The notes beneath the pieces were generated by a model that was not told the DNA's origin, made no database searches, and saw only the letters and a program-made list of their open reading frames with translations. Of a stretch of DNA of 33,134 nt, positions 6,472 to 25,887 are shown piece after piece. The position numbers and the translations under genes are program-made. The DNA lies in contig NZ_JAJQQP010000003.1 in NCBI RefSeq assembly GCF_028994805.1, positions 1 to 33,134 of the forward strand, written 5' to 3'. The stretch is from Promicromonospora iranensis (GTDB lineage: Bacteria > Actinomycetota > Actinomycetes > Actinomycetales > Cellulomonadaceae). Every line of letters starts with the position of its first letter. Position 1 is the first letter of the stretch.

Positions 6472-8334
6472 ATGAGTCGTCCCCTGCGCTCCCGGACGTC
6501 CACCCACGGCCGCAACATGGCCGGAGCTCGCGCGCTGTGGCGCGCCACGGGCATGGGTTCCGAGGACTTCGGGAAGCCGATCATCGCGATCGCGAACTCG
6601 TACACGCAGTTCGTGCCGGGGCACGTACACCTCAAGGACATGGGCGACCTCGTGGCGTCGGCGATCCGCGAGGCCGGGGGCGTCGCCAAGGAGTTCAACA
6701 CGATCGCGGTCGACGACGGCATCGCGATGGGACACGCGGGCATGCTCTACTCCCTGCCGAGCCGGGACCTGATCGCGGACTCCGTGGAGTACATGGTGCA
6801 GGCGCACACCGCCGACGCGCTCGTCTGCATCTCGAACTGCGACAAGATCACGCCGGGCATGCTCAACGCCGCGCTGCGGCTGAACATCCCGGTGATCTTC
6901 GTGTCGGGTGGGCCCATGGAGGCCGGCAAGGCGGTGGTGGCCGACGGCGTCGCGAAGACTCCGCTGAACCTGATCAACGCGATCAACTACTCGGCGGACG
7001 AGAACGTGGACGACGCCGCGCTCGGCCTGGTCGAGGAGAACGCCTGCCCCACGTGCGGCTCGTGCTCCGGCATGTTCACCGCGAACTCGATGAACTGCCT
7101 CACCGAGGCGCTGGGGCTGTCGCTGCCGGGCAACGGCTCGACGCTCGCGACGCACGCCGCCCGCAAGGAGCTGTTCCTCGAGGCCGGCCGCACCATCGTC
7201 GACCTGGCCCGCCGGTACTACGAGGACGAGGACGACGGCGCCGCGCCGCGTGGCATCGCGACCAAGTCCGCCTTCGCCAACGCGATGACGCTCGACGTCG
7301 CCATGGGCGGCTCCACGAACACGGTGCTGCACATCCTCGCGGCGGCCCAGGAGGCGGAGGTCGACTTCACGCTCGCCGACATCGAGGACATCAGCCGCCG
7401 GGTGCCGTGCTTGTCGAAGGTCGCGCCGAACCACCCCGACTACCACATGGAGGACGTCCACCGGGCTGGTGGCATCCCCGCGCTGCTGGGCGAGCTCGAC
7501 CGGGGCGGCCTGCTGGACCACGACGTCACCTCGGTGCACACGCCCACGCTGCGCGCGTGGCTGGACGACTGGGACATCCGCAGTGGCAAGACCACCGAGC
7601 GGGCGCTCGGCCTGTTCCACGCGGCGCCCGGCGGTGTGCGCACCACCCAGGCGTTCTCCACGAACAACCAGTGGGAGTCGCTCGACACCGACGCCGCCGG
7701 CGGCTGCATCCGCGACGTCGAGCACGCGTACACCGTCGAGGGCGGGCTCGCCGTGCTGCGGGGCAACATCGCCGAGGACGGCGCCGTCTTCAAGACGGCA
7801 GGCGTCGACCCCGACGTGTTCCACTTCGTCGGCAAGGCGCTCGTCTGCGAGTCCCAGGACGAGGCGGTCGAGAAGATCCTGACCAAGCAGGTCGAGCCGG
7901 GCCATGTGGTGGTCGTGCGTTACGAGGGCCCTGCCGGCGGGCCCGGCATGCAGGAGATGCTCTACCCGACCTCGTACATCAAGGGACGCGGTCTGGGGAA
8001 GGTGGTCGCCCTGATCACCGACGGCCGGTTCTCCGGCGGGTCCAGCGGCATCTCGGTGGGCCACGTCTCCCCGGAGGCCGCGGCGGGCGGCACCATCGGC
8101 CTGATCGAGGACGGCGACGAGATCGAGATCGACGTCGACACCCGCCTGATCCGGGTCAACGTGCCGGACGAGGTGCTCGCCGAGCGCCGCGCCAAGATGG
8201 AGTCCTCCGAGCGGCCGTGGCAGCCCGTGGACCGCGACCGGTACGTGTCGCCGGCGCTGCAGGCCTACGCGGCACTGGCGACGTCGGCCGACCGGGGCGC
8301 CGTGCGGGACGTGGCACGCCTCCAGCGACGCTGA
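6472..8334 (+). CDS. ilvD: dihydroxy-acid dehydratase
   Basis: A 620-residue Fe-S dehydratase that turns 2,3-dihydroxy-3-methylbutanoate (or -pentanoate) into the 2-oxo acid, the penultimate step of valine and isoleucine synthesis. The family blocks are clear: [12 protein letters not shown] (Cys119 and Cys123), [19 protein letters not shown] (Cys192, 195, 198, 209), PGNGST, and near the C-terminus [20 protein letters not shown]. The length and the VPGHVHL block without an early Cys fit the long E. coli-like subgroup. ATG 6472 has GAAGGAG about 10 nt before it. It is transcribed alone: a strong hairpin follows at 8343-8373. It lies 16 kb from ilvBNC, so the pathway is split across this window. 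Confidence 0.96.
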
Positions 8335-13932: not shown

Positions 13933-13961
13933 GTTATGGGCGTGCCATAACCTTTGCCGGG
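13933..13961 (+). promoter_or_regulatory. operator-like palindrome over the -10 of the Ole-like operon
   Basis: GTTATGG (13933-13939) and CCATAAC (13945-13951) are a perfect 7-bp inverted repeat with a 5-nt spacer. The right arm overlaps a -10-like TAACCT (13948-13953), which is followed by 7 nt and then the GTG start at 13961. A repressor bound here would block transcription; the mRNA would be leaderless. The -35 is not clear. Confidence 0.5.
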
Positions 13962-15166
13962 TGCTCCCCGAACCGGCCGCCGTGCTGAACCCGGCACCCG
14001 CCCGACCTGTCGAACCCTCCGCTGCGCCCCAGCCGGCGCCGCGGCAGCGTCCGCGCCCCGTCGCCCGCATCGCGGGCGTCGCCGTGCACCTGCCCGAGCG
14101 CACCCGGGACGTGGCCGAGGCCGAGCGCGAGCTGCACCGCAGGAACCCGGACGTCGCGCCGCGCCTGCCGCTGGTGTCGCGCCTGACGGGCGTGCGCCGC
14201 GTCCACGTGGCGGACGACGACCAGCAGGCCTCCGACCTCGCCGTCGCCGCCTCCCGCACGGTCCTCGACCGTGCGGGCCTCGGTCCGCAGGACGTCGACC
14301 TCCTGATCTTCGCATCGGCCACCCAGGACATGATCGAGCCCGCGACCAGCCACATCACGGCCGCCAAGCTCGGCGTCCGCGCGCCGGTGATGGACGTCAA
14401 GAACGCCTGCAACTCCGTGCTCAACGGCATAGAGGTCGCCGAGGCGCTCATCGGCACCGGTCGGTACCGCCGTGTGCTCGTCGCGTGCGGGGAGATGCCC
14501 ACCCGCGGCGTGCGGTGGGACGTCCCGGACCGCCGCACGTACGCGATGTCCGCGGCGGGCTACACGATGTCCGACGCCGGTGCGGCGGTGCTCGTCGAGG
14601 CGACCGGCGCCGCGAGCACGCCCGGCTTCGGGCCGGCGGGCGTCTCCGGACCCTCCGACGGCTTCGAGGACGACCTCGTCGCGGAGCTGGCGGAGCTGGT
14701 CGAGCCGGCCGGCCGGCCGTCGGGCATCCTCTCCTCGGTGTTCGCCGCGGAGTCGCAGCACTGGGACGTCGGCATGCTGCCGGGCGGCGGCACGGTGAGC
14801 CCGCGCGACCCGGAGCGGAGCTACTTCGAGATCGACGGGTCGCGGCTGCGTACGGCGTTCGACGCCTTCGGGTCGGCGCCCGTGGAGCAGGCCCTGGCCG
14901 CGGCGGGCGTGACCATGGACGACGTCGCGCTCGTCGCGGTGCACCAGGTGGCGGTCGCGTACCTCGCGGACGTGCACCGGACGCTCGGCGTGCCGGCCGA
15001 CCGCACGATCGTCACCGTGGCCGACCACGGCAACATCGCCTCGGCGACGCTTCCGCTGCAGCTCGCCACGGCGCTGGAGTCCGGCCGCCTGGGGCGGGGC
15101 GACGTCGTGCTGCTGCTCGGTCTCGCGGGCGGGGTCAGCATGGGTGCGATGGTGGTCCGGTGGTGA
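13961..15166 (+). CDS. OleA-like 3-oxoacyl-ACP synthase III family protein
   Basis: A 401-residue thiolase-fold enzyme. Residues ~1-35 are a Pro/Ala-rich extension; the KAS III core follows. The catalytic triad is C150 (VKNACNSVLNGIE), H328 (AVHQVAVAYL) and N358 (DHGNIASATLP). The segment QDMIEPATS carries E126, 24 residues before the Cys; a Glu at this place is the mark of OleA, which condenses two acyl-CoAs head to head, whereas FabH has another residue there. This and the OleC- and OleD-like genes downstream are the reasons for the OleA-like call; a FabH-type starter enzyme cannot be excluded. The GTG start at 13961 fits a leaderless transcript. The stop overlaps the next start (GTGA). Confidence 0.8.
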   Translation: MLPEPAAVLNPAPARPVEPSAAPQPAPRQRPRPVARIAGVAVHLPERTRDVAEAERELHRRNPDVAPRLPLVSRLTGVRRVHVADDDQQASDLAVAASRTVLDRAGLGPQDVDLLIFASATQDMIEPATSHITAAKLGVRAPVMDVKNACNSVLNGIEVAEALIGTGRYRRVLVACGEMPTRGVRWDVPDRRTYAMSAAGYTMSDAGAAVLVEATGAASTPGFGPAGVSGPSDGFEDDLVAELAELVEPAGRPSGILSSVFAAESQHWDVGMLPGGGTVSPRDPERSYFEIDGSRLRTAFDAFGSAPVEQALAAAGVTMDDVALVAVHQVAVAYLADVHRTLGVPADRTIVTVADHGNIASATLPLQLATALESGRLGRGDVVLLLGLAGGVSMGAMVVRW

Positions 15167-15957
15167 GCGGCGGACAGCTCGGCCCGCAGGCGGGTCGCCC
15201 CCGCCTCGCCGTCGTCGTGCCCGCGCTGAACGAGGCGCACGAGCACGGGATCCTCCGCACGCTCGAGGCGCTGCGCGATCAGGAGGACGACGACTTCGAC
15301 CTGGTGGTCGTGGACAACGGGTCCACGGACGGCACGCCCGACGTCGTGCGCAAGGCGATAGCGAACTGGGGACGGCTGCGCTGGCACCTCGTCACCGAGG
15401 ACCAGAAGGGGACCGGCGCCGCCGCGGACACCGGGATGCGCGCCGCCATCGGCCTCGGGGCCGAGCTGCTGGCTCGCACGGACGCCGACTGCCTGCCCCC
15501 ACCGACGTGGACCAGTGCTGTCCGGGCGGCCTTCGCGTCGGGCGACGAGCTCGTCGCGGGGCGGCTCGTCCCGCGCGACGACGACCTGCCGGTGTCGCGG
15601 TTCCAGCAGGGCGTGCTGTCGTTCGCGCTGTGGGCGTCGAGCACGTTCGGCAAGGTCCGGCCCGGGAACCAGGACGAGGGGTACCTCGGGCCGTACGTCA
15701 TGACGCCCGGCTGCAACATGGCGATCACCGCCTCCCTGTACGAGCGGGCCGGCGGGTTTCCGCGCACCCGGATCGAGGACCTGCACGAGGACCGTGCGCT
15801 GGTCAACGCGGTGCGGCGGCTGACGACGCGGTACGGCGAGCACCGTGACGTGTGGGTGCGCGCCTCGACGCGCCGGGTGCACGCCTGGGGGCTCGTGCGG
15901 ACGCTCGGCTGGTACGCCGACCACCGGTACCGGCCCGAGGTCGTGGACATCCGATGA
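15163..15957 (+). CDS. glycosyltransferase family 2 protein
   Basis: A 264-residue GT-A fold glycosyltransferase. It begins with the nucleotide-sugar binding strand LAVVVPALNE, followed by VVDNGSTDGT and the DxD-type metal site ARTDADC. Later, GCNMAITASLYERAGGFP and IEDLHEDRALVNAV supply the acceptor region and a likely catalytic ED pair. No membrane segment is evident, so it is probably soluble or peripheral. It is translationally coupled on both sides (GTGA at 15163, ATGA at 15954). In the Ole-like operon it most simply glycosylates the lipid product, perhaps at a hydroxyl made by a P450; that role is inference. The frame is open upstream only as the OleA shadow. Confidence 0.85.
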   Translation: MSGGQLGPQAGRPRLAVVVPALNEAHEHGILRTLEALRDQEDDDFDLVVVDNGSTDGTPDVVRKAIANWGRLRWHLVTEDQKGTGAAADTGMRAAIGLGAELLARTDADCLPPPTWTSAVRAAFASGDELVAGRLVPRDDDLPVSRFQQGVLSFALWASSTFGKVRPGNQDEGYLGPYVMTPGCNMAITASLYERAGGFPRTRIEDLHEDRALVNAVRRLTTRYGEHRDVWVRASTRRVHAWGLVRTLGWYADHRYRPEVVDIR

Positions 15958-17216
15958 GAGCCCACCCGGCGGTGGCGCGTGCGCACGACCTCGGCGGGGC
16001 GGCGCCCGAGGCGGCCTGGGAGGAGCGGGTCCAGCGCGCGGCACACCCCCTCGCGTACCCGGCACTGCGGTCCGCGCGGAACCGGCCGGTGGTCCGGGTG
16101 CCGCGCATCGGCGTGGTGGTGAGCGATGCCGCCCTCGCCCGCGAGGTGCTGCTCGACCTCGACCACTTCTCGAAGGTGGGCCCGGGGGCGCCGTCAGACC
16201 TGTGGACGCCGGTGCTCGGGCCGTCGGTGCTGCTCAACATGGAGGGCGCCGAGCACGCCGCACTGCGGCGGGCGCTCGGGCCGCTGTTCTCGCCCCGCGC
16301 GGTCCGCGAGCTCGTGGCGGCCGACGACGGCGACGCGGGCGTGCTGCCGGACCTCACGCGACGGCTCGCTGCGGGGGAGGCCGTCGACCTGGCGGCGGTG
16401 GTCGGCGCCCAGGCCGGCGCCGTGATCTGCGGGATGGTCGGACTGCCGCCGACCGACGAGGCGGTGCGCTCGTCCATGGCCGCCGCCCAGACGATCACCG
16501 GGATGGTGCGCCTGCACCGGCACGGCCTCACCCGGTCCCAGGTGGTCCGGGCACGGACCGTGCTGGAACGGCTGACCGCGCCCGCGCGCATCGCGTACCG
16601 TGCCGGAGACCCGGCGACGGTCCCCGGACGGATGCGCGACCTGGGACTGTCCGAGCGTGAGGCGATGGGCGCCGTCGGGGCGTTCGTGCTCACCGGGACG
16701 GAGACCATCCAGTCGTTCGTGCCCCGCCTCGTGGCCATCGCGCACGACGCCGGATGGACGGCGCGCCTGCTGGCGGACGACGCCCCGCTGCGGCGTCGTG
16801 CCGTCGAGGAAGGGCTGCGCGTCACCGTGCCGACCCCCGCGATGCTGCGCTCGGTGCGCGCCGGTACGTCGGTCGGCGGGGTGCCGGTCGCCGCGGGGGA
16901 CCGGGTGGTGATCGCCACCGTGAACTGCTGCCGGGCGGGCGGCGGCTTCGACCCCGACCGGTCGGTCGACCCCGCCGTGCGGCACCTCTGGTTCGGCGCG
17001 GGCCCGCACTTCTGCCTCGGCATGCCGCTCGCGATGGCGCAGGTGGACGCGGTGCTCGACGCGCTCGCGGCAGCGGCGTCCGACGGGCGTGTCCCGGTCG
17101 TGGGCGGGCGCCGGGCCGCTCGTGGCGTGCTGGTCCCCGCGTACCGCTCGCTCGAGCTTCGCCTGGGGGACCCAGGCCGTGCTCCTGTCCGGTCCGCTGC
17201 GCGGGTGGCGTCGTGA
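15954..17216 (+). CDS. cytochrome P450 no. 2
   Basis: A 420-residue P450 with heme loop FGAGPHFCLG (ligand Cys354), ExxR E286-R289 and I-helix TGTET (247-251), so the acid/alcohol pair for oxygen activation is kept. It is a normal Cys-ligated monooxygenase, not a CYP152 peroxygenase (OleT). It shares the EGLRVT..., LWFGAG.H.CLG and RRAARGVL(V/I)PA blocks with P450 no. 1. ATG 15954 overlaps the glycosyltransferase stop, and its own stop overlaps the GTG of the ligase. The tight coupling implies it works on an intermediate or product of the Ole-like pathway, for example by hydroxylation; the substrate is unknown. Confidence 0.92.
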   Translation: MRAHPAVARAHDLGGAAPEAAWEERVQRAAHPLAYPALRSARNRPVVRVPRIGVVVSDAALAREVLLDLDHFSKVGPGAPSDLWTPVLGPSVLLNMEGAEHAALRRALGPLFSPRAVRELVAADDGDAGVLPDLTRRLAAGEAVDLAAVVGAQAGAVICGMVGLPPTDEAVRSSMAAAQTITGMVRLHRHGLTRSQVVRARTVLERLTAPARIAYRAGDPATVPGRMRDLGLSEREAMGAVGAFVLTGTETIQSFVPRLVAIAHDAGWTARLLADDAPLRRRAVEEGLRVTVPTPAMLRSVRAGTSVGGVPVAAGDRVVIATVNCCRAGGGFDPDRSVDPAVRHLWFGAGPHFCLGMPLAMAQVDAVLDALAAAASDGRVPVVGGRRAARGVLVPAYRSLELRLGDPGRAPVRSAARVAS

Positions 17217-18940
17217 CGCACTTCGTGGATGATCTGCTCGCCGTCGCACGGAGCGCACCCGACCTCGTCGCGCTCCGCTGGTTCGGCGGCCGCGACGGAG
17301 GGCGCGTGCGCGAGGAGGTCACGTTCGGCAGCCTGGCCGAGCGGGTGGAGCGGACGGCGTCCGGGCTGCGAGCGCAGGGCATGGAGCCCGGCGACCGTGT
17401 GCTCTTCAGCATCCGGCCCCGGCCGGAGGGGGTGGTCCTGTGCCTGGCGGTCCTGCGTGCGGGTGGCGCCGTCGTGTTCGTGGACCCTGGCTCGACGCCG
17501 GAGCTGTTCGCCGCGCGGATCGCGGCGGCGAAGCCGCGCTGGGCCGCGACGGAGGCGCTGCTGTACGCGGCGTCGTCGGGGCCGCTGCGGGGGGTCGCCC
17601 GGTCGCGCGGCCTGCTGCTGCCCGACTACGGGCGGCTGCCCGTGCGGCACCTGTACACCGGTGCGTGGCTCCCGGGTGTGCCGCGGGGTGCTCGCCGGGT
17701 GACGAGCCTGGGCCGGGTGGCGCCGGGGTCGGGTCGGGCGTCGGCGACCGGTGCGGGCGCTCCCGGAGTGACGGGGGAGGCGGACCGGGAGGCGCTGGTC
17801 GTCTTCACGTCCGGCACGACGTCGGACCCGAAGGCGGTGGTGCACACCGCTCGGACGCTCGGCGGGATGCTGGGCCTGTTCGCCCGGGTCGGTGACCTGA
17901 AGCCGGCGCAGCGGGCGCACACGGACCAGATGTTCCTGGGGCTGCCGGCGATCATGGCGGGGGGCACGTGGGAGATTCCCGCGAAGGCGCCGAAGGACGC
18001 CCCGGAGGCGTTCGCACGGGGCGTCGCGGGGGCCGACTCCTCGTTCCTGGTGCCTGCCGACGTGACCGCGCTGCTCGACGTCCTGGAGACACGGAGCCGA
18101 GCGGGCGGGACCACGCCGGCGGAGGGCCCGGCGGTGCTCGCGGTCGGCGCCGCGCCCGTCACCGTGGCACTGCTCGAGCGTGGCCGCCGCGTCCTGCCGG
18201 GCACCCGCTGGCTCGCGGTCTACGGCGCCACCGAGATCCTGCCGGCGGCGGTGACGGACGCGGACGAGAAGATCGCGGCCGCCGCGGAGGGCGACCTCGT
18301 CGGGCACCCGCTCGACGGGACAGGCGTCCGGATCGATCCGGAGGCTGCTTCGGACCCGGAGGCCGCCGCAGGTGCGGACGGTGCGGACGGCGCCGGGGAG
18401 CCGGCGGGCGGCGACGGCGAACGAGTGGTCGGCGAGCTCGTGCTGACCGGGCCGTCCCTGATGGCCGGCTACCTGTCCGACCTCGACGCCGGCGGGCCAC
18501 GGGCGGTCGAGCACCGCACCGGCGACCTCGCGTACCGGGACGTCGAGGGGCGGATCGTGCTGGTCGGCCGCAACCGGGACATGATCATCCGCGGGACCGT
18601 GAACATCTACCCCGGTCTGTTCGAGCCACGGCTGCGGGACCTGCCGGGCGTGGCGGACGCCGTCATGGTCGGTGTCCCGGTGCCCGACGGAGACGAGCGG
18701 GTGGTGCTCGTGGTGACCGCCGAGGGCGGCACCCGGACCACCGGGACCCCGGAGATCCGGGCCACCACGGAGCTGACCCGGTCGGTGGCGGACCAGGTGG
18801 GCCGGGTCGTGGACCACGGCGCGCTGCCCGACCTGGTGGTCGAGGCGTCCCACCTGCCGCTCGCGGGCCGTTCCCGGAAACCTGATCGTCGTGCGCTGGT
18901 CAGCTTGGTTTCACCCGTGACCGGTACAGTGCGCGCATGA
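17213..18940 (+). CDS. OleC-like AMP-dependent ligase (beta-lactone synthetase type)
   Basis: A 575-residue ANL-superfamily enzyme. The motifs are FTSGTTSDPK (198-207), YGATEILP (337-344), TGD (436-438), RNRD (453-456) and the C-terminal catalytic lysine region SRKPDRR (K556). YGATE followed by Leu-Pro is the form I associate with OleC, which uses ATP to close a 2-alkyl-3-hydroxy acid into a beta-lactone; ordinary acyl-CoA ligases usually have YGxTE followed by other residues. Two low-complexity Gly/Ala/Asp inserts (170-190, 375-404) interrupt the fold. There is no alpha/beta-hydrolase part at the N-terminus, so it is not an OleBC fusion. GTG 17213 overlaps the P450 stop. A fatty acyl-AMP or acyl-CoA ligase is the alternative. 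Confidence 0.78.
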   Translation: MTHFVDDLLAVARSAPDLVALRWFGGRDGGRVREEVTFGSLAERVERTASGLRAQGMEPGDRVLFSIRPRPEGVVLCLAVLRAGGAVVFVDPGSTPELFAARIAAAKPRWAATEALLYAASSGPLRGVARSRGLLLPDYGRLPVRHLYTGAWLPGVPRGARRVTSLGRVAPGSGRASATGAGAPGVTGEADREALVVFTSGTTSDPKAVVHTARTLGGMLGLFARVGDLKPAQRAHTDQMFLGLPAIMAGGTWEIPAKAPKDAPEAFARGVAGADSSFLVPADVTALLDVLETRSRAGGTTPAEGPAVLAVGAAPVTVALLERGRRVLPGTRWLAVYGATEILPAAVTDADEKIAAAAEGDLVGHPLDGTGVRIDPEAASDPEAAAGADGADGAGEPAGGDGERVVGELVLTGPSLMAGYLSDLDAGGPRAVEHRTGDLAYRDVEGRIVLVGRNRDMIIRGTVNIYPGLFEPRLRDLPGVADAVMVGVPVPDGDERVVLVVTAEGGTRTTGTPEIRATTELTRSVADQVGRVVDHGALPDLVVEASHLPLAGRSRKPDRRALVSLVSPVTGTVRA

Positions 18941-19911
18941 AGGTGGCGGTGACCGGTTCGTCTGGTTTTGTTGGTGGTGCTGTGGTCCGCGACCTGGCGG
19001 CGCGCGGGCACGAGGTGATCGCGTTCTCGCGTCGGGTCCCACGCCTGCCCGGCGACGTCCTCCATCAGGTCGCCCACCAGTTCTGGGACCTCCGGGACGG
19101 GCCGCTGGCCAAGGAGGACCGCCCGGAGGACGTCGACGCCGTCGTGCACTGCGGCGCAGCGGTGGCCGACGGCGGTAGCCACGCCCGCGCGTGGGTGGTC
19201 AACGTCGAGGGCACCCGCGCGGTCCGCGAGACGTTCCCCGAGGCCCGGTTCGTGCACGTGTCCTCGGGCAGCGTCTACGACCCTCGTACCCCGAGCGTGG
19301 CGGTGACCGAGTCGGAGGCGCCCGCGCACGGCTACGTCAACGCCTACGGCTCCACCAAGGCGGCCGCCGAGCGGTACCTGACGGCCGACGCCGCGCGCGA
19401 GGACCGGGGTCCCGTCATCGTCCTGCGGCCGCACGCGGTCTACGGCCCCGGCGACACGACGCTGCTGCCGCGCCTGGAGGCGGCGGCGGTCGGCGCCTGG
19501 CTGCCGATCCCCGGTGGCGGGAAGGTGCGTCAGCACCTCACGCATGTCGACACCCTCGTCCAGGCGGTGCGCGCGGCGCTGGACGCCGACGTCGAGCCCG
19601 AGACGGCCGCCGGCCGGCCGCTCGTGGCCAACGTGGCCGACGCCCGGCCCGTCGACCTGGACGAGACGCTCGAGATGCTCATGTTCGCCAGGTTCCGGCC
19701 GGTGCAGGTGGTCGGCATCCCCATCCGGCTCGCGAACGTCCTGGCCTGGGCGGGCGAGAAGATGTCCCGCTGGACCGGTCGCGAGCCGCGCCTGTCCCGG
19801 TACACCATCAGCCACCTCGCGATGGAGCGCACCTACGACCTCACGGTGCTGCGCGAGCGGCTCGGCGTCGACCCGGCGCCGACGTCGCTGCACGGCGCGA
19901 TGAGCTGGTAA
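18937..19911 (+). CDS. OleD-like NAD(P)-dependent epimerase/dehydrogenase
   Basis: A 324-residue extended short-chain dehydrogenase. Residues 1-13 carry the dinucleotide loop MKVAVTGSSGFVG; the catalytic residues are S110 (VSSGSVY) and Y137/K141 (YGSTK). The segments HAVYGPGD and QHLTHVDTLVQAV are typical of the 3-beta-HSD / OleD branch, where the enzyme reduces the 2-alkyl-3-oxo acid made by OleA to the 3-hydroxy acid. By itself the sequence could also be a sugar epimerase; the OleD reading rests on the operon. ATG 18937 overlaps the ligase stop (ATGA). It is the last gene of the five-gene unit; no clear terminator follows, and the next promoter lies within 50 nt. Confidence 0.78.
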   Translation: MKVAVTGSSGFVGGAVVRDLAARGHEVIAFSRRVPRLPGDVLHQVAHQFWDLRDGPLAKEDRPEDVDAVVHCGAAVADGGSHARAWVVNVEGTRAVRETFPEARFVHVSSGSVYDPRTPSVAVTESEAPAHGYVNAYGSTKAAAERYLTADAAREDRGPVIVLRPHAVYGPGDTTLLPRLEAAAVGAWLPIPGGGKVRQHLTHVDTLVQAVRAALDADVEPETAAGRPLVANVADARPVDLDETLEMLMFARFRPVQVVGIPIRLANVLAWAGEKMSRWTGREPRLSRYTISHLAMERTYDLTVLRERLGVDPAPTSLHGAMSW

Positions 19912-19945
19912 CCACGACCGAAGCGGCGGCTTGCCTGGAATGCCC

Positions 19946-19961
19946 TACCCTGTGCGGGTGA
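19946..19961 (+). promoter_or_regulatory. -10 element before the ABC ATPase
   Basis: TACCCT (19946-19951) lies 6 nt before an in-frame GTG (19958) and 9 nt before ATG 19961, so the transcript is expected to be leaderless. No ribosome site is present. A -35 was not recognised. Confidence 0.4.
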
Positions 19962-21331
19962 TGCCAGGGAGCGACACCGCGGTCGAGACGCTCGGGCTGC
20001 GCAAGGCGTACCGGTCGGTGCGCGGGCGCGTCGTGGGCATCGAAGGGCTCGACCTCCGTGTACCGGTCGGCGGGATCCACGCGCTGCTCGGCCTCCCCGG
20101 TTCCGGCAGGACCACCACGCTCCGTCTCCTCACCGGCCTGGCGCACGCCGACGGGGGCGCCATCAAGATCTTCGGCACCCCCGTACCCGACGGCCTGCCC
20201 GACCTCGCCGGCCGCATCGGCGCCGTCGTCGGCGAACCCGGGTTCCAGGCCGGCCTGAGCGGCCGCCGGAACCTGACGCTCCTCGCGAGCGCGGCAGGAG
20301 TGCCGCGCACCAGGGTCGACGAGGTGCTGGCCCGCGTGCTCCTCACCGACCGCGCCACGACGGCCTACCGCACCTACTCGGCCGACGAGGGGCGCCGGCT
20401 CGCGCTCGCCGCCGCGCTCCTGTGCGATCCCGACCTGCTCGTCGTCGACGAGCCGAGCGCGGGGCTCGACGCCGTCGGCACGCGCGAGATCCGGGAGGCC
20501 CTGCGGCGCCTCGCCGACCAGGGGAAGACCGTCCTCCTGGCCACCGGCGTCCTGACGGAGGCCCAGCAGATCGCGGACACGGTGACCGTGCTCGACGGTG
20601 GCCGCGTCCTCGCCCAGGGCGTCGTCGCCGACCTCCTCGGTGATGCGGAGGTCAGCGTCCGGGTGCGGCTCGACGAGCCGGGGAAGGCGGCCACGGCGCT
20701 GCGCGCCGCGGGGTTCAAGGTCCGGGCCGACGGCGACGCGCTGTACGTCGACGGCGTCGCCGAACCGTCGGACGTCTCCCGGGCGCTCGCGAAGCAGAAG
20801 CTGTTCGTCAGCGAGCTGGTGCCGCAGCGCGAGGATCTGGCCGCTGTCGTGGGCAGGCTGCGGCCGGTCACGCCGCCGACCCCGAAGGTCCCGACCCGCG
20901 CGGAGGAGCGCGCTGCTCGTAAGGCGACCGAGCGGCAGGCCGCCGAGCGCAGGAAGGCGGCCGACCAGCGCAAGACCGCGAAGGAGGCCGCCGCCAAGCA
21001 GGCGGCTGCCGACGCGGAGCGCGCCGAGCGGGCGGCGGAGAAGCAGGCGGCTGCCGACGAGAAGGCGGCAGCCAAGCAGGCGGCTGCGGACGAGAAGGGC
21101 GCCAAGCAGGCGAGCGGCTCGACGACGGACACCGCGACGACGGACACCGCGAAGACAGGCGCCGCGAAGACAGGCGCCGCGAAGACAGGCGCCGCGAAGA
21201 CAGGCGCCGCGAAGACAGGTGCCGCCAAGACAGGTGCCGCCAAGACAGGTGCCGCCAAGACAGGTGCCGCCAAGACAGGTGCCGCCAAGACAGGCACTCC
21301 GAAGCCGCAGCGCACCGAGGGGACACGATGA
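19961..21331 (+). CDS. degenerate ABC transporter ATPase with AKTGA-repeat tail
   Basis: A 456-residue protein. Residues ~8-220 form an ABC-2 (BcrA-like) ATPase fold, but key sites are altered: Walker A is GLPGSGRTT with Arg50 in place of the invariant Lys; the LSGGQ signature is replaced by YSADE (139-143); the H-loop reads LLATGVLTE with Gly196 where His is expected. Walker B (LLVVDEPSAGLD) is intact. Residues ~225-300 form an accessory domain. Residues 313-385 are a highly charged Ala/Lys/Arg/Glu helix, likely coiled coil, followed by ten pentapeptides AKTGA (397-446; last one AKTGT). The start may be GTG 19958, ATG 19961 or, less likely, ATG 19940. The stop overlaps the permease start, so the two act together. 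Confidence 0.85.
   Translation: MPGSDTAVETLGLRKAYRSVRGRVVGIEGLDLRVPVGGIHALLGLPGSGRTTTLRLLTGLAHADGGAIKIFGTPVPDGLPDLAGRIGAVVGEPGFQAGLSGRRNLTLLASAAGVPRTRVDEVLARVLLTDRATTAYRTYSADEGRRLALAAALLCDPDLLVVDEPSAGLDAVGTREIREALRRLADQGKTVLLATGVLTEAQQIADTVTVLDGGRVLAQGVVADLLGDAEVSVRVRLDEPGKAATALRAAGFKVRADGDALYVDGVAEPSDVSRALAKQKLFVSELVPQREDLAAVVGRLRPVTPPTPKVPTRAEERAARKATERQAAERRKAADQRKTAKEAAAKQAAADAERAERAAEKQAAADEKAAAKQAAADEKGAKQASGSTTDTATTDTAKTGAAKTGAAKTGAAKTGAAKTGAAKTGAAKTGAAKTGAAKTGAAKTGTPKPQRTEGTR
21149..21298 (+). repeat. ten 15-bp tandem repeats coding for AKTGA
   Basis: Ten head-to-tail 15-bp units. Units 1-4 read GCGAAGACAGGCGCC, unit 5 is a hybrid, units 6-9 read GCCAAGACAGGTGCC, and unit 10 ends in ACT. 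Just before them, a different 15-bp unit (ACGACGGACACCGCG, from about 21122) occurs twice. The array stays in frame and ends the ATPase. The block pattern suggests growth by at least two separate duplication steps. Confidence 0.95.
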
Positions 21332-22089
21332 CGGGCCTGCTGTGGGCGGAGCTGCGGCGGTTCGGCGCGCGGCCCGCGATCCGCTGGATCGCCGCGGGCA
21401 TGCTGGGGCACGTCGCCCTGGCGGTCGCGCTGACGGTGTTCGAGGTCGGCTCGTCGACGCTCGCCCGGATGCTGGAGCAGGGGGCGATCTCGTTCTACGC
21501 GCTGACGTCGGTGTTCCTGGCCTATGTGGCGGGCGTGCTGCTGGTGACGGGCGACGCGGCGTCGGGCGGCACGCGGGCGCTGCTGACCGTCGAGCCACGC
21601 CGTAGCCGCGTGTACTGGAGCAAGGTGGCCGCCGCCGCCCTGGCAGTCCTGCCCGGAGTGGCGGCGGCGTACACGCTGCTGGCCCTGGGGATGTACGGGG
21701 TGCACGCACGCGCGGGGATGCTGGGTGGTCCGGCGTCGGACCTGGCCACCGAGCTGACGTGGAGCGGCGTGCGGGTGCTTGCGCTCGCGGCCTGTGCGGC
21801 GGCCGGTGGGGCAGCGCTCGGTGTCCTGGTGCGGCGCTGGTGGGTCGCCGTCCCGCTCGTCGTGGTGTGGTTCCTCGTCGAGGAGACGGCGCTGAGCACG
21901 GCCTCTGCTGGTCAGCAGTGGTTCTTGTTCACCAACGCCGACACCTGGGTCCGCGGCACACGGACCGTCGTGCCCGGCGACGGGCTCCTGGCGGTCCCGC
22001 TCGTGCACAGCGCGCTCCTGCTGCTCGGCGCGGCGGTGGTGCTGACCGTCCTCGGCTGGGTCGTATTCCGGCGGCGGGACGTACCCTGA
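21328..22089 (+). CDS. ABC-2 type permease
   Basis: A 253-residue integral membrane protein with about six hydrophobic segments (for example IAAGMLGHVALAVALTVF, FLAYVAGVLLVTGDAA, VLALAACAAAGGAALGVLV, VPLVVVWFLVEETAL, LLLLGAAVVLTVLGWVVF). The segment TGDAASGGTRALLTVEPRRSRVYWSKV resembles the cytoplasmic loop after the second helix in ABC-2 permeases, which contacts the ATPase. It overlaps the degenerate ATPase gene by 4 nt (ATGA) and should be its only partner in this window. The substrate is unknown. No gene follows on this strand until the ilv leader. Confidence 0.8.
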   Translation: MTGLLWAELRRFGARPAIRWIAAGMLGHVALAVALTVFEVGSSTLARMLEQGAISFYALTSVFLAYVAGVLLVTGDAASGGTRALLTVEPRRSRVYWSKVAAAALAVLPGVAAAYTLLALGMYGVHARAGMLGGPASDLATELTWSGVRVLALAACAAAGGAALGVLVRRWWVAVPLVVVWFLVEETALSTASAGQQWFLFTNADTWVRGTRTVVPGDGLLAVPLVHSALLLLGAAVVLTVLGWVVFRRRDVP

Positions 22090-22255: not shown

Positions 22256-22324
22256 GCCCAGCACAGGCATCGTCCGCGCGCTCACCCTGGCAGTCCTTGC
22301 TCACCAAGGACCCGGGGTTTTTTT
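22241..22324 (+). promoter_or_regulatory. ilvB transcription attenuator
   Basis: Two structures follow the leader codons. GAGCGCGCGG (22241-22250) pairs perfectly with 22274-22283 (10 bp), the likely pause hairpin. GTCCTTG (22293-22299) pairs with 22305-22311 (7 bp, 5-nt loop), followed within 6 nt by seven T residues (22318-22324), a true intrinsic terminator. A ribosome stalled at the Ile/Leu/Val run would cover or approach the left arm of the first hairpin. The antiterminator pairing itself could not be worked out by eye. Confidence 0.8.
22293..22324 (+). terminator. intrinsic terminator of the ilvB attenuator
   Basis: A 7-bp stem (22293-22299 with 22305-22311) precedes CCGGGG and seven T. 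It is the only hairpin in the window with a clear T-tract. It lies 57 nt before the ilvB start, so it decides whether ilvBNC is transcribed. Confidence 0.8.
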
Positions 22325-22380
22325 GTTGTCACGAACGCTCGCTTTCGCCCCAGGACGGGGCGCGACGGCAGGAGATCCGT

Positions 22381-24261
22381 ATGACCGGCACACCGACACC
22401 CGCACAGATCGCCGCGCGCGCCGAGGCGCGTGACCAGGTGCGCACCGAGCTTCGGTCCCGCGTGGTAAGCGGCAAGGCCGAGACCGAGGCAGCCACGCCT
22501 CGCGTCGGGCCGGAGGAGGTCACGGGGGCGCAGTCGATCGTCCGCTCGCTCGAGGAGATCGGTGTCGACACCGTCTTCGGCATCCCGGGCGGCGCGATCC
22601 TTCCCCTGTACGACCCGCTGATGGACTCCGCGAAGCTCCGGCACATCCTCGTGCGGCACGAGCAGGGTGGCGGCCACGCGGCGTCGGGCTACGCCCACGC
22701 GACCGGCAGGGTCGGGGTGACCATGGCGACGTCGGGTCCCGGCGCGACGAACCTGGTGACGCCCATCGCCGACGCGCACATGGACTCCATCCCGCTCGTC
22801 GCGATCACCGGTCAGGTGGCGTCCGCGTCGATCGGGACCGACGCGTTCCAGGAGGCCGACATCGTCGGCATCACGCTGCCGATCACCAAGCACAACTTCC
22901 TGGTCACCGACCCGGCCGACATCCCCCGCACCATCGCGGAGGCGTTCCACATCGCCTCGACGGGGCGGCCGGGACCGGTGCTGGTGGACATCTCCAAGTC
23001 GGCCATGCAGTCGCGCACCACGTTCTCGTGGCCGCAGGAGCTGCAGCTGCCCGGATACCACCCGGTGACCAAGCCGCACTCGAAGCAGATCCGGGAGGCC
23101 GCGAGGCTGCTGGCCACGGCGAAGCGCCCGGTGCTGTACGTGGGCGGCGGCGTCATCCGGTCCGGGGCGGCGAACCTGCTGCGCCAGCTCGTCGACCTGT
23201 CCGGGGCGCCCGTCGTGACGACCCTGATGGCCCGCGGCGCGGTGCCGGACAGCCACCCGCAGCACCTGGGGATGCCCGGCATGCACGGCACCGTGCCCGC
23301 CGTGGCAGCGCTGCAGAAGGCGGACCTGGTCTTCGCGCTCGGTGCCCGGTTCGACGACCGCGTGACGGGCAAGCTCTCGAGCTTCGCCCCGCTGGCCGCG
23401 ATCATCCACGCGGACATCGACCCGGCGGAGATCGGCAAGAACCGCGAGGCCGACGTGCCGATCGTGGGTGACCTGCGCGAGGTCATCGGCGACCTGCTGC
23501 CCGAGCTGGCCAGGGAGCACGAGACGCACGGCAAGCCGGACGTCGAGGGCTGGTGGCACCAGCTGGACGAGTGGCGCCGCACCTACCCCCGCGGCTACAC
23601 GCAGCCGGAGGACGGACACCTCTCGCCGCAGCACGTGATCCAGCGTCTCGGCGAGATGACCGGGCCCGACGGGATCTACGTCGCGGGCGTGGGGCAGCAC
23701 CAGATGTGGGCGGCGCAGTTCATCAGCTATGAGCGGCCGAACACCTGGATCAACTCCGGCGGCCTCGGCACCATGGGCTACTCCGTCCCTGCCGCGATGG
23801 GCGCGAAGGTCGGCCAGCCGGACCGGACCGTCTGGGCGATCGACGGCGACGGCTGCTTCCAGATGACCAACCAGGAGCTCGCCACCTGTGCGATCAACGA
23901 CATCCCCATCAAGGTGGCCGTGATCAACAACAGCTCGCTGGGCATGGTGCGGCAGTGGCAGACGCTCTTCTACGAGTCGCGCTACTCCAACACCGACCTG
24001 CACACCGGTCACGGCACCCGGCGCATCCCCGACTTCGTGAAGCTCGCCGACGCGTACGGCTGCGAGGGCATCCGCGTGGAGCACGCCTCCGAGGTCGACG
24101 CCGCGATCAAGCGCGCCAACGAGATCGACGACCGGCCCGTCGTCGTGGACTTCACCGTCTCGCGGGACGCGATGGTGTGGCCCATGGTCGCCGCCGGCGT
24201 GAGCAACGATGACATCCAGTACGCACGCGGCATCTCGCCGGCGTGGGACCGAGAAGACTGA
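22381..24261 (+). CDS. ilvB: acetolactate synthase, large (catalytic) subunit
   Basis: A 626-residue thiamine-diphosphate enzyme that joins two pyruvates (or pyruvate and 2-oxobutanoate), the first common step of branched-chain amino acid synthesis. The catalytic Glu94 lies in [19 protein letters not shown]; the FAD-binding middle domain contains RFDDRVTGK; the ThDP/Mg site is the [13 protein letters not shown]...[14 protein letters not shown] region at about 487-530. The first ~45 residues are an extension typical of actinobacterial homologues. ATG 22381 has AGGAG 8 nt upstream and lies behind the attenuator; the open frame before it covers the terminator and is not coding. ilvN follows after 16 nt. 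Confidence 0.96.
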
Positions 24262-24277
24262 GCGAGGACTGAATCCC

Positions 24278-24802
24278 ATGTCGAGGCACACCCTGTCCGT
24301 GCTCGTGGAGAACAAGCCCGGCGTGCTCACGCGCGTCGCCGGGCTGTTCGCCCGGCGCGCGTTCAACATCCACTCCCTGGCGGTGGGCCCCACGGAGCAC
24401 GAGGAGATCTCGCGCATCACCGTGGTGGTCGACGTCGAGGAGCACCCCCTGGAACAGGTCACCAAGCAGCTCAACAAGCTCATCCACGTGATCAAGATCG
24501 TCGAGCTCGAACCCGAGTCGTCAGTGCACCGCGAGCTCCTGCTCGTCAAGGTGCGGGCCGACGCCGCCACCCGCACCGGGGTGCTGGAAGTCGTCGAGAT
24601 GTTCCGGGCGCGCGTCGTCGACGTCGTGCCGGAGTCCGTGGTCATCGAGGCCACGGGACCCGCCGCGAAGCTCGACTCGCTGCTCGCGGCGCTGGAACCG
24701 TACGGCGTCCGTGAGATCGTCAAGTCCGGGACCCTGGCCATCGGCCGGGGTGCCCGGTCCATCACCGACCGCGCCTTCGAGCGCGCCGTCCGGTCCGCGT
24801 GA
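24278..24802 (+). CDS. ilvN: acetolactate synthase, small (regulatory) subunit
   Basis: A 174-residue regulatory partner of IlvB. Residues ~3-78 form an ACT domain (RHTLSVLVENKPGVLTRVAGLFARR, with NIHSLAVGPTE), where valine binds for feedback inhibition; the rest is the second ALS_ss_C domain ending with the GTLAIGRG block. It raises the activity of the large subunit and makes it sensitive to end product. ATG 24278 follows the ilvB stop by 16 nt with a GAGGA-type ribosome site. It lies between ilvB and ilvC as in the standard actinobacterial operon. Confidence 0.96.
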   Translation: MSRHTLSVLVENKPGVLTRVAGLFARRAFNIHSLAVGPTEHEEISRITVVVDVEEHPLEQVTKQLNKLIHVIKIVELEPESSVHRELLLVKVRADAATRTGVLEVVEMFRARVVDVVPESVVIEATGPAAKLDSLLAALEPYGVREIVKSGTLAIGRGARSITDRAFERAVRSA

Positions 24803-24846
24803 CCGCCTGACCTACTGACTTACTTTCACCCGAGAAGATCAATTGA

Positions 24847-25887
<1,041 letters not shown>

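Follow-up and report, generated by a model that had tools for sequence, protein, structure and literature searches.

The Ole-type operon

The window analysed here, a 33,134-nucleotide stretch of contig NZ_JAJQQP010000003.1 of Promicromonospora iranensis, carries an operon of five plus-strand genes that overlap end to end. The first gene (13961..15166, 401 residues) encodes an OleA-like thiolase of the KASIII family with Cys150, His328, Asn358, Glu126 and an NACN motif around the catalytic cysteine. It is followed by a family 2 glycosyltransferase (GT2) with GT-A fold (15163..15957, 264 residues), a cytochrome P450 with heme ligand Cys354, the pair E250-T251 and an ExxR motif (15954..17216, 420 residues), an OleC-like adenylate-forming enzyme, which is a putative β-lactone synthetase with the P-loop TSGTTSDPK and a C-terminal GRSRKPDR (17213..18940, 575 residues), and an OleD-like short-chain reductase with YxxxK and TGxxGxxG motifs (18937..19911, 324 residues). 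A preliminary description of this DNA had placed the gene junctions at 15163 (GTGA), 15954 (ATGA), 17213 (GTGA) and 18937 (ATGA), and these positions as well as the gene coordinates are correct. The catalytic residues that it named in OleA (C150, H328, N358 and E126) are likewise present and, together with P127, are invariant in 13 aligned proteins of the family; the motif YGATEILP occurs in the OleC-like protein. As judged from the encoded proteins, the five genes constitute a lipid pathway whose product is probably a sugar-decorated, oxidised β-lactone or a related lipid. The cluster is part of a wider actinobacterial cluster family, one member of which has been described previously.

Conservation and spread

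Within a set of 20 loci from the same family as the window (L011-L030), the order OleA-GT2-P450-OleC-OleD is complete in 17, and the five genes therefore do not lie side by side by chance. No OleD was found by tblastn at L023 and L025; L030 is cut by a contig end, with its GT2 gene on another contig of the same genome; and at L019 a gap of 2.4 kb separates P450 and OleC. A GT2 profile matches 49 of 200 genomes of the family, spread over 10 of 25 genera and including all 13 genomes of the window's genus in the draw. Among 396 genomes drawn evenly from the phylum, the profile yields three matches, namely the window's own genome and two others; both of the latter have the complete gene set, arranged as OleA-GT2-OleC-P450-OleD. 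A scan of contigs with a Streptomyces GT2 gave 416 encoding stretches; the 80 most similar ones (L093-L172) were examined. They derive mostly from Streptomyces and Kitasatospora, but also from Actinoplanes, Couchioplanes, Saccharothrix and others, and 65 of them display all five genes in this second order. The remaining 15 lack P450 and/or OleD, and one of these also OleA, in the sequence examined; several are short contigs. A second GT2 match is present in 23 of the 80 loci, located between OleC and P450 or, on contigs that stop short, downstream of OleC; among the 65 complete loci, 21 have it between OleC and P450. The second GT2 of locus L100 (11249-12061) is identified as GT2 by Pfam.

The order OleA-GT-OleC-P450-OleD is also that of the cluster which PMC7064751 (2020) describes for Actinoplanes atraurantiacus, in a genome without oleB. 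In the same paper, this cluster was proposed to produce a hydroxylated, glycosylated β-lactone. Thus, the Actinoplanes cluster and the window share five functions, the lack of oleB and the type of product proposed, and differ in gene order; compared with the Actinoplanes/Streptomyces type, the window type moreover often carries a second, divergently oriented P450. With gene set and proposal already given in PMC7064751, the combination of genes is not new, and the central idea of the preliminary description was in print. Its interpretation is partly supported: the Ole grouping, the absence of an OleB match and the recurring gene order stand, and the long-chain acyl-CoA substrates and the hydroxylation or glycosylation of the product are putative. 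Our search of the open-licence PubMed Central literature retrieved no later report of a product for the cluster. As far as that search goes, the new findings are the delineation of the clade with its sequence signatures and distribution, the altered gene order and additional P450 in the window's family, the occurrence beside oleA-oleBC-oleD loci and the location next to ilv genes.

OleA, OleC and OleD form a distinct clade

The scores of NCBIfam and Pfam models are insufficient to decide on membership of OleA, OleC and OleD in the Ole families, and phylogenetic trees were used for this reason. The Cys-His-Asn triad is present in 20/20 window-type OleA rows. In PMC7064751, Glu117 followed by Pro is given as the mark of OleA; its equivalent, Glu126, occurs in 20/20 window-type, 22/22 Streptomyces-type and 21/21 OleB-type OleAs and in 0/5 other KASIIIs. 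Two further KASIII genes found in the window's own genome are located on other contigs and lack this Glu. Directly after the catalytic Cys, all 42 rows of the window and Streptomyces types have Asn (NACN), and all 21 OleB-type rows have Leu (NACL). The oleA search pattern EPxx[AS]x(14,18)DxxNACL, published in PMC7158056, matches 21/21 OleB-type rows and none of the 20 window-type and 22 Streptomyces-type rows, so that the clade would escape a survey relying on this pattern. In the OleA tree, 12 window-type and 22 Streptomyces-type rows form one clade (support 98/96); together with OleB-type, Lst-like and Nlt-like rows they are split from five KASIIIs at 100/100, albeit with this small outgroup and with long-branch warnings from treekit. 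The placement of the second Nlt-like OleA row is meaningless owing to its branch length of 7.22.

For OleC, one split separates 45 Ole rows from 10 other ligases (100/97), and window and Streptomyces types are united at 100/100. One S. toxytricini ligase, misplaced across the split in an initial tree (branch length 3.05), was subsequently left out, and ligases of the window's genome were added. In the final tree L190 gave no row, the ligases L214 and L216 fill less than half of the columns, and 10 Streptomyces-type rows are omitted; both trees were calculated without the short L073. The motifs FTSGTT[SA]xP[KR]AVVH and GRS[RQL]KPDR are each found in 42/42 OleCs of the clade, and these two short signatures make it easy to find. 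OleB-type OleCs carry an RHNSKIDR-like C-terminal motif in 14 of 19 cases, the other five being unmatched by the pattern.

The OleD-like reductase, whose best NCBIfam match is the OleD model NF042422, has counterparts with YxxxK and TGxxGxxG in 18/18 window-type rows. In the final OleD tree, which again gave long-branch warnings, 54 Ole rows are split from 12 epimerase-family proteins of the window's genome (98/96), and window and Streptomyces types group at 98/88; the outgroup derives from 12 of 15 epimerase-family loci (all except L229, L230 and L233), and 8 of its 12 members have long branches. For all three proteins, 8 rows of the window's family were dropped, and the best 80 loci contributed only 20 rows, in addition to L039 and L040. 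The three trees agree, so that window-type and Streptomyces-type clusters are sisters in each; the sister clade of the window's proteins consists of other Actinoplanes, Couchioplanes, Streptomyces and Kitasatospora sequences, A. atraurantiacus itself not being sampled. Hence, in the comparisons that the preliminary description had called for with FabH, ordinary ligases and sugar epimerases, the three proteins side with the Ole enzymes, although the outgroups are small (5, 10 and 12). By these sequence criteria, window-type and Streptomyces/Actinoplanes-type clusters represent one distinct Ole clade, characterized by an NACN OleA and an OleC P-loop without glycine.

Absence of OleB and co-resident Ole loci

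The preliminary description had stated that OleB is missing, which agrees with our searches of the window and of the genome. With the OleB part of the OleBC fusion from a Micrococcales relative (L083) as tblastn query, there is no match in the window at E≤0.01. Of 20 reference loci, 14 match the same query at a site between OleA and OleC, and the 20 family loci show no match; of the best 80 loci, one (L153) shows a weak OleB-like match downstream (27% identity). We further ran an OleB profile of 12 rows over 59 genomes. Thirteen of these match at E≤9.2e-90 and the next match follows at 2.9e-34; the window's own genome, which is rich in α/β-hydrolases (68 Abhydrolase_1 matches), has no OleB profile match at E≤1e-20. 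Two weak matches among 12 other genomes of the genus (G003, 3e-27; G008, 1.6e-25) are taken to be other hydrolases because of their distance from 9.2e-90.

In three genomes of the same family (G018, G019 and G032) a window-type cluster coexists with a separate oleA-oleBC-oleD locus. This argues against an olefin operon simply deprived of OleB. Likewise, Streptomyces toxytricini JCM 4421 harbours a GT2-type cluster (L106) next to an lst-like OleA-OleC-OleD locus (L182) that is probably the lipstatin cluster. Most simply, the cluster would have a function that is not covered by olefin and lipstatin-type pathways.

Comparison with characterized Ole pathways

With the OleABCD olefin pathway (Xanthomonas; with an OleBC fusion in Micrococcales) the window shares the OleA triad and Glu, an OleC-like and an OleD-like protein; it differs by the lack of OleB, by NACN instead of NACL and by its separate clade. 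The lipstatin (lst) and nocardiolactone (nlt) clusters have OleA, OleC and OleD without OleB in common with the window, as stated for the producers in PMC7064751. The window clade is nevertheless separate from both, and the lst row and the intact nlt row have Ala behind the catalytic Cys, in place of the window's Asn. We take L182 to represent lst and L090 to represent nlt, judging from context and from what is generally known of these clusters. Nlt and Lst pathways use two OleA-like subunits. Whereas the window operon holds one, complete OleA gene, the Nlt-like locus L090 has two OleA-like genes, one of which lacks Cys, His and Asn.

The P450 enzymes and the glycosyltransferase

Divergent from the operon, the window encodes a second cytochrome P450 (11901..13223, minus strand), which the coordinates of the preliminary description had left out. 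It adjoins the operon in 12 of the 20 family loci, distant genera included. Heme Cys, ExxR and the Glu-Thr pair, as in a normal monooxygenase, are conserved in 20/20 operon P450s and 13/13 second P450s of the window type. In contrast, the Streptomyces-type P450s (rows from L039, L040 and L093-L172) retain Thr in 61/61 but the acid of this acid-alcohol pair in 0/61, with Asn in 51; the heme Cys is found in 59 of the 61, the other two showing a gap or Leu in that column. Loss of the acid is an unusual state for a monooxygenase. In a midpoint-rooted tree with long-branch warnings, operon, second and Streptomyces-type P450s are located on one side and five other P450s of the window's genome on the other (100/99), while the operon and second P450s of the window's family are sisters (91/83). 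This tree omitted 8 of 20 operon, 4 of 13 second and 49 of 61 Streptomyces-type rows, and one own-genome P450 locus, L206, gave no open reading frame with the heme pattern. These relations are most simply explained by an ancestral five-gene cluster with a single P450; the P450 gene would have been duplicated in the window's family and the GT2 gene in some Streptomyces-type clusters.

P450 enzymes that decarboxylate, such as OleT, are known. The operon P450 might accordingly replace OleB and convert the β-hydroxy acid or the lactone to an olefin after all, a role with which the missing acid in 61/61 Streptomyces-type P450s would agree. We consider this highly improbable: the window-type enzymes keep E250 and T251, as in hydroxylases, OleC and GT2 would be superfluous, and the three family genomes discussed above carry an oleA-oleBC-oleD locus as well.

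Proposed pathway and alternatives

On balance, the sequence data tip us towards an OleACD-type pathway in which decarboxylation is omitted and P450 oxidation, GT2 glycosylation and possibly export follow. OleA would join two acyl units head to head, as suggested by its Cys-His-Asn triad, the OleA-specific Glu and its position in the tree. By family, OleD is predicted to reduce the resulting β-keto acid to a 2-alkyl-3-hydroxy acid, which OleC would close to the β-lactone with ATP. Since OleB is lacking, the lactone would not be converted to an olefin. The P450, which in many members is accompanied by another enzyme from its own clade, may oxidise an alkyl chain; GT2 could then add a sugar to the new hydroxyl group, and the adjacent ATP-binding cassette (ABC) transporter may export the product.

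Several observations weigh against this proposal, among them the scores of protein models and pairwise comparisons. The window OleA lies below the cut-off of every NCBIfam and Pfam model listed; it scores higher with several FabHs than with the Xanthomonas campestris OleA in pairwise comparisons with Protein Data Bank (PDB) entries; and the PDB matches of the OleA family profile at E≤1e-30 are FabH-type chains only. For OleC, NCBIfam OlefBLtnSynXan gives 88.8 bits at a cut-off of 900, a threshold also missed by the OleC half of the Micrococcales OleBC fusion L083 (306.6 bits), and PRK09274 scores a non-Ole ligase of the same genome higher than OleC (151.7 versus 144.3 bits). NF042422 reaches 121.6 bits on OleD at a cut-off of 580, which 0 of 396 phylum genomes attain. 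As an alternative, the KASIII might initiate ordinary fatty-acid or polyketide synthesis in the manner of FabH and resemble Ole only superficially; in its favour, a generic KASIII model outscores PRK09258, which we take to be the OleA-like model (162.7 versus 132.3 bits). The catalytic Glu, the 100/100 split from five KASIIIs and the Ole-type neighbours OleC and OleD, however, leave this explanation with very little probability.

The main doubt concerns the substrate and arises from the Actinoplanes enzyme. In PMC7064751, purified OleA condensed none of the C8-C16 acyl-CoAs offered, while it hydrolysed p-nitrophenyl hexanoate. The pathway might thus be the same, with one or both OleA substrates being short, branched, oxidised or bound to acyl carrier protein rather than two long-chain acyl-CoAs. 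This variant is also consistent with the higher pairwise scores of the window OleA with FabHs, with NACN replacing NACL at the catalytic Cys and with the position of the operon between ilvD and ilvBNC. Yet the Actinoplanes protein precipitated and little was available for the condensation assay, as the same paper reports, and an ilv neighbourhood can be mere location. We regard different substrates as a serious possibility, though not the leading one.

The OleC P-loop also argues against lactone closure: the usual glycine is absent in 42/42 members of the clade, where Ser or Ala takes its place, versus Gly at that site in the 13 OleB-type rows matched by the search pattern. The enzyme might instead activate a mycolate-like 2-alkyl-3-hydroxy acid as acyl-AMP for transfer or thioester formation without forming a lactone, and GT2 would then contribute to an envelope glycolipid. 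The distinct OleC clade with its GRS[RQL]KPDR motif and the lack of a product report in the open-licence literature agree with such a function. Conversely, in the tree the protein sits among OleB-type, Lst- and Nlt-like OleCs, apart from the ten ligases, and Pfam and NCBIfam detect no acyltransferase or carrier protein among the five operon proteins. We therefore judge acyl-AMP chemistry unlikely.

Finally, of the three genomes that combine the cluster with an olefin locus, only G019 has the five genes complete. In the other two, G018 and G032, OleD from the olefin locus could act in both pathways, or the cluster might be decaying. Both clusters show apparent decay or change: at that of G032 (L025), the GT2 frame contains a stop and OleD is missing; at that of G018 (L023), an α-amylase-family gene occupies the place of OleD.

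Returning to the OleACD-type pathway that we favour, the clade, with its dedicated P450 family and GT2, could tentatively be seen as a third Ole branch beside olefins and lipstatin-type lactones. Its products would be head-to-head lipids of a new class, glycosylated and oxidised, whose precursors are not two long-chain acyl-CoAs, and the actinobacterial species concerned may number in the hundreds; this broader notion is less probable than the pathway as such. β-Lactones are drug leads, lipstatin having given rise to orlistat, and head-to-head lipids are membrane components. The clade represents a conserved, uncharacterised pathway of many Streptomyces and one Micrococcales family, sometimes encoded beside an olefin or lipstatin-like locus.

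Neighbouring genes

Downstream of OleD follow the ATP-binding protein of an ABC transporter (19931..21331, plus strand) and, overlapping with it, a probable ABC-2 type permease (21328..22089, plus strand; Pfam score 24.1 bits, under the cut-off of 27.2); either may belong to an exporter. This transporter (19931-22089) is likewise not included in the coordinates of the preliminary description. The ATPase gene is found downstream of the operon in 13 of the 20 family loci. At L018 (G014), a 3.2-kb insert between OleA and GT2 (L018:4081-7221) encodes an FtsX/MacB-like ABC transporter, perhaps a second hint of product export. A Uma2-family gene (PF05685; 13265-13897, minus strand) lies between the second P450 and OleA and recurs in 7 of the 20 family loci, all of the same genus.

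The cluster is flanked by ilvD (6472-8334) on one side and by ilvB, ilvN and ilvC (22297-25887) on the other, with leuB beyond. The names ilvD, ilvC and leuB are based on NCBIfam matches; ilvB and ilvN are presumed from general knowledge and from position. Of the 20 family loci, 19 have ilvB at the OleD end and 13 have a close ilvD (at least 84% identity) at the opposite end; several others stop before the ilvD position. The ilv neighbourhood could be a mere insertion site or reflect a link to branched-chain precursors. In six of nine cluster-free relatives (L195-L203), an ilvD-like gene (38-40% identity) is located at most 1.3 kb from ilvB. Orthologues of the ABC ATPase vary strongly in length, from 330 (L023) to 957 residues (L016), and the C-terminus of the window's protein (approximately 21130-21320) consists of a run of KTGAA repeats.

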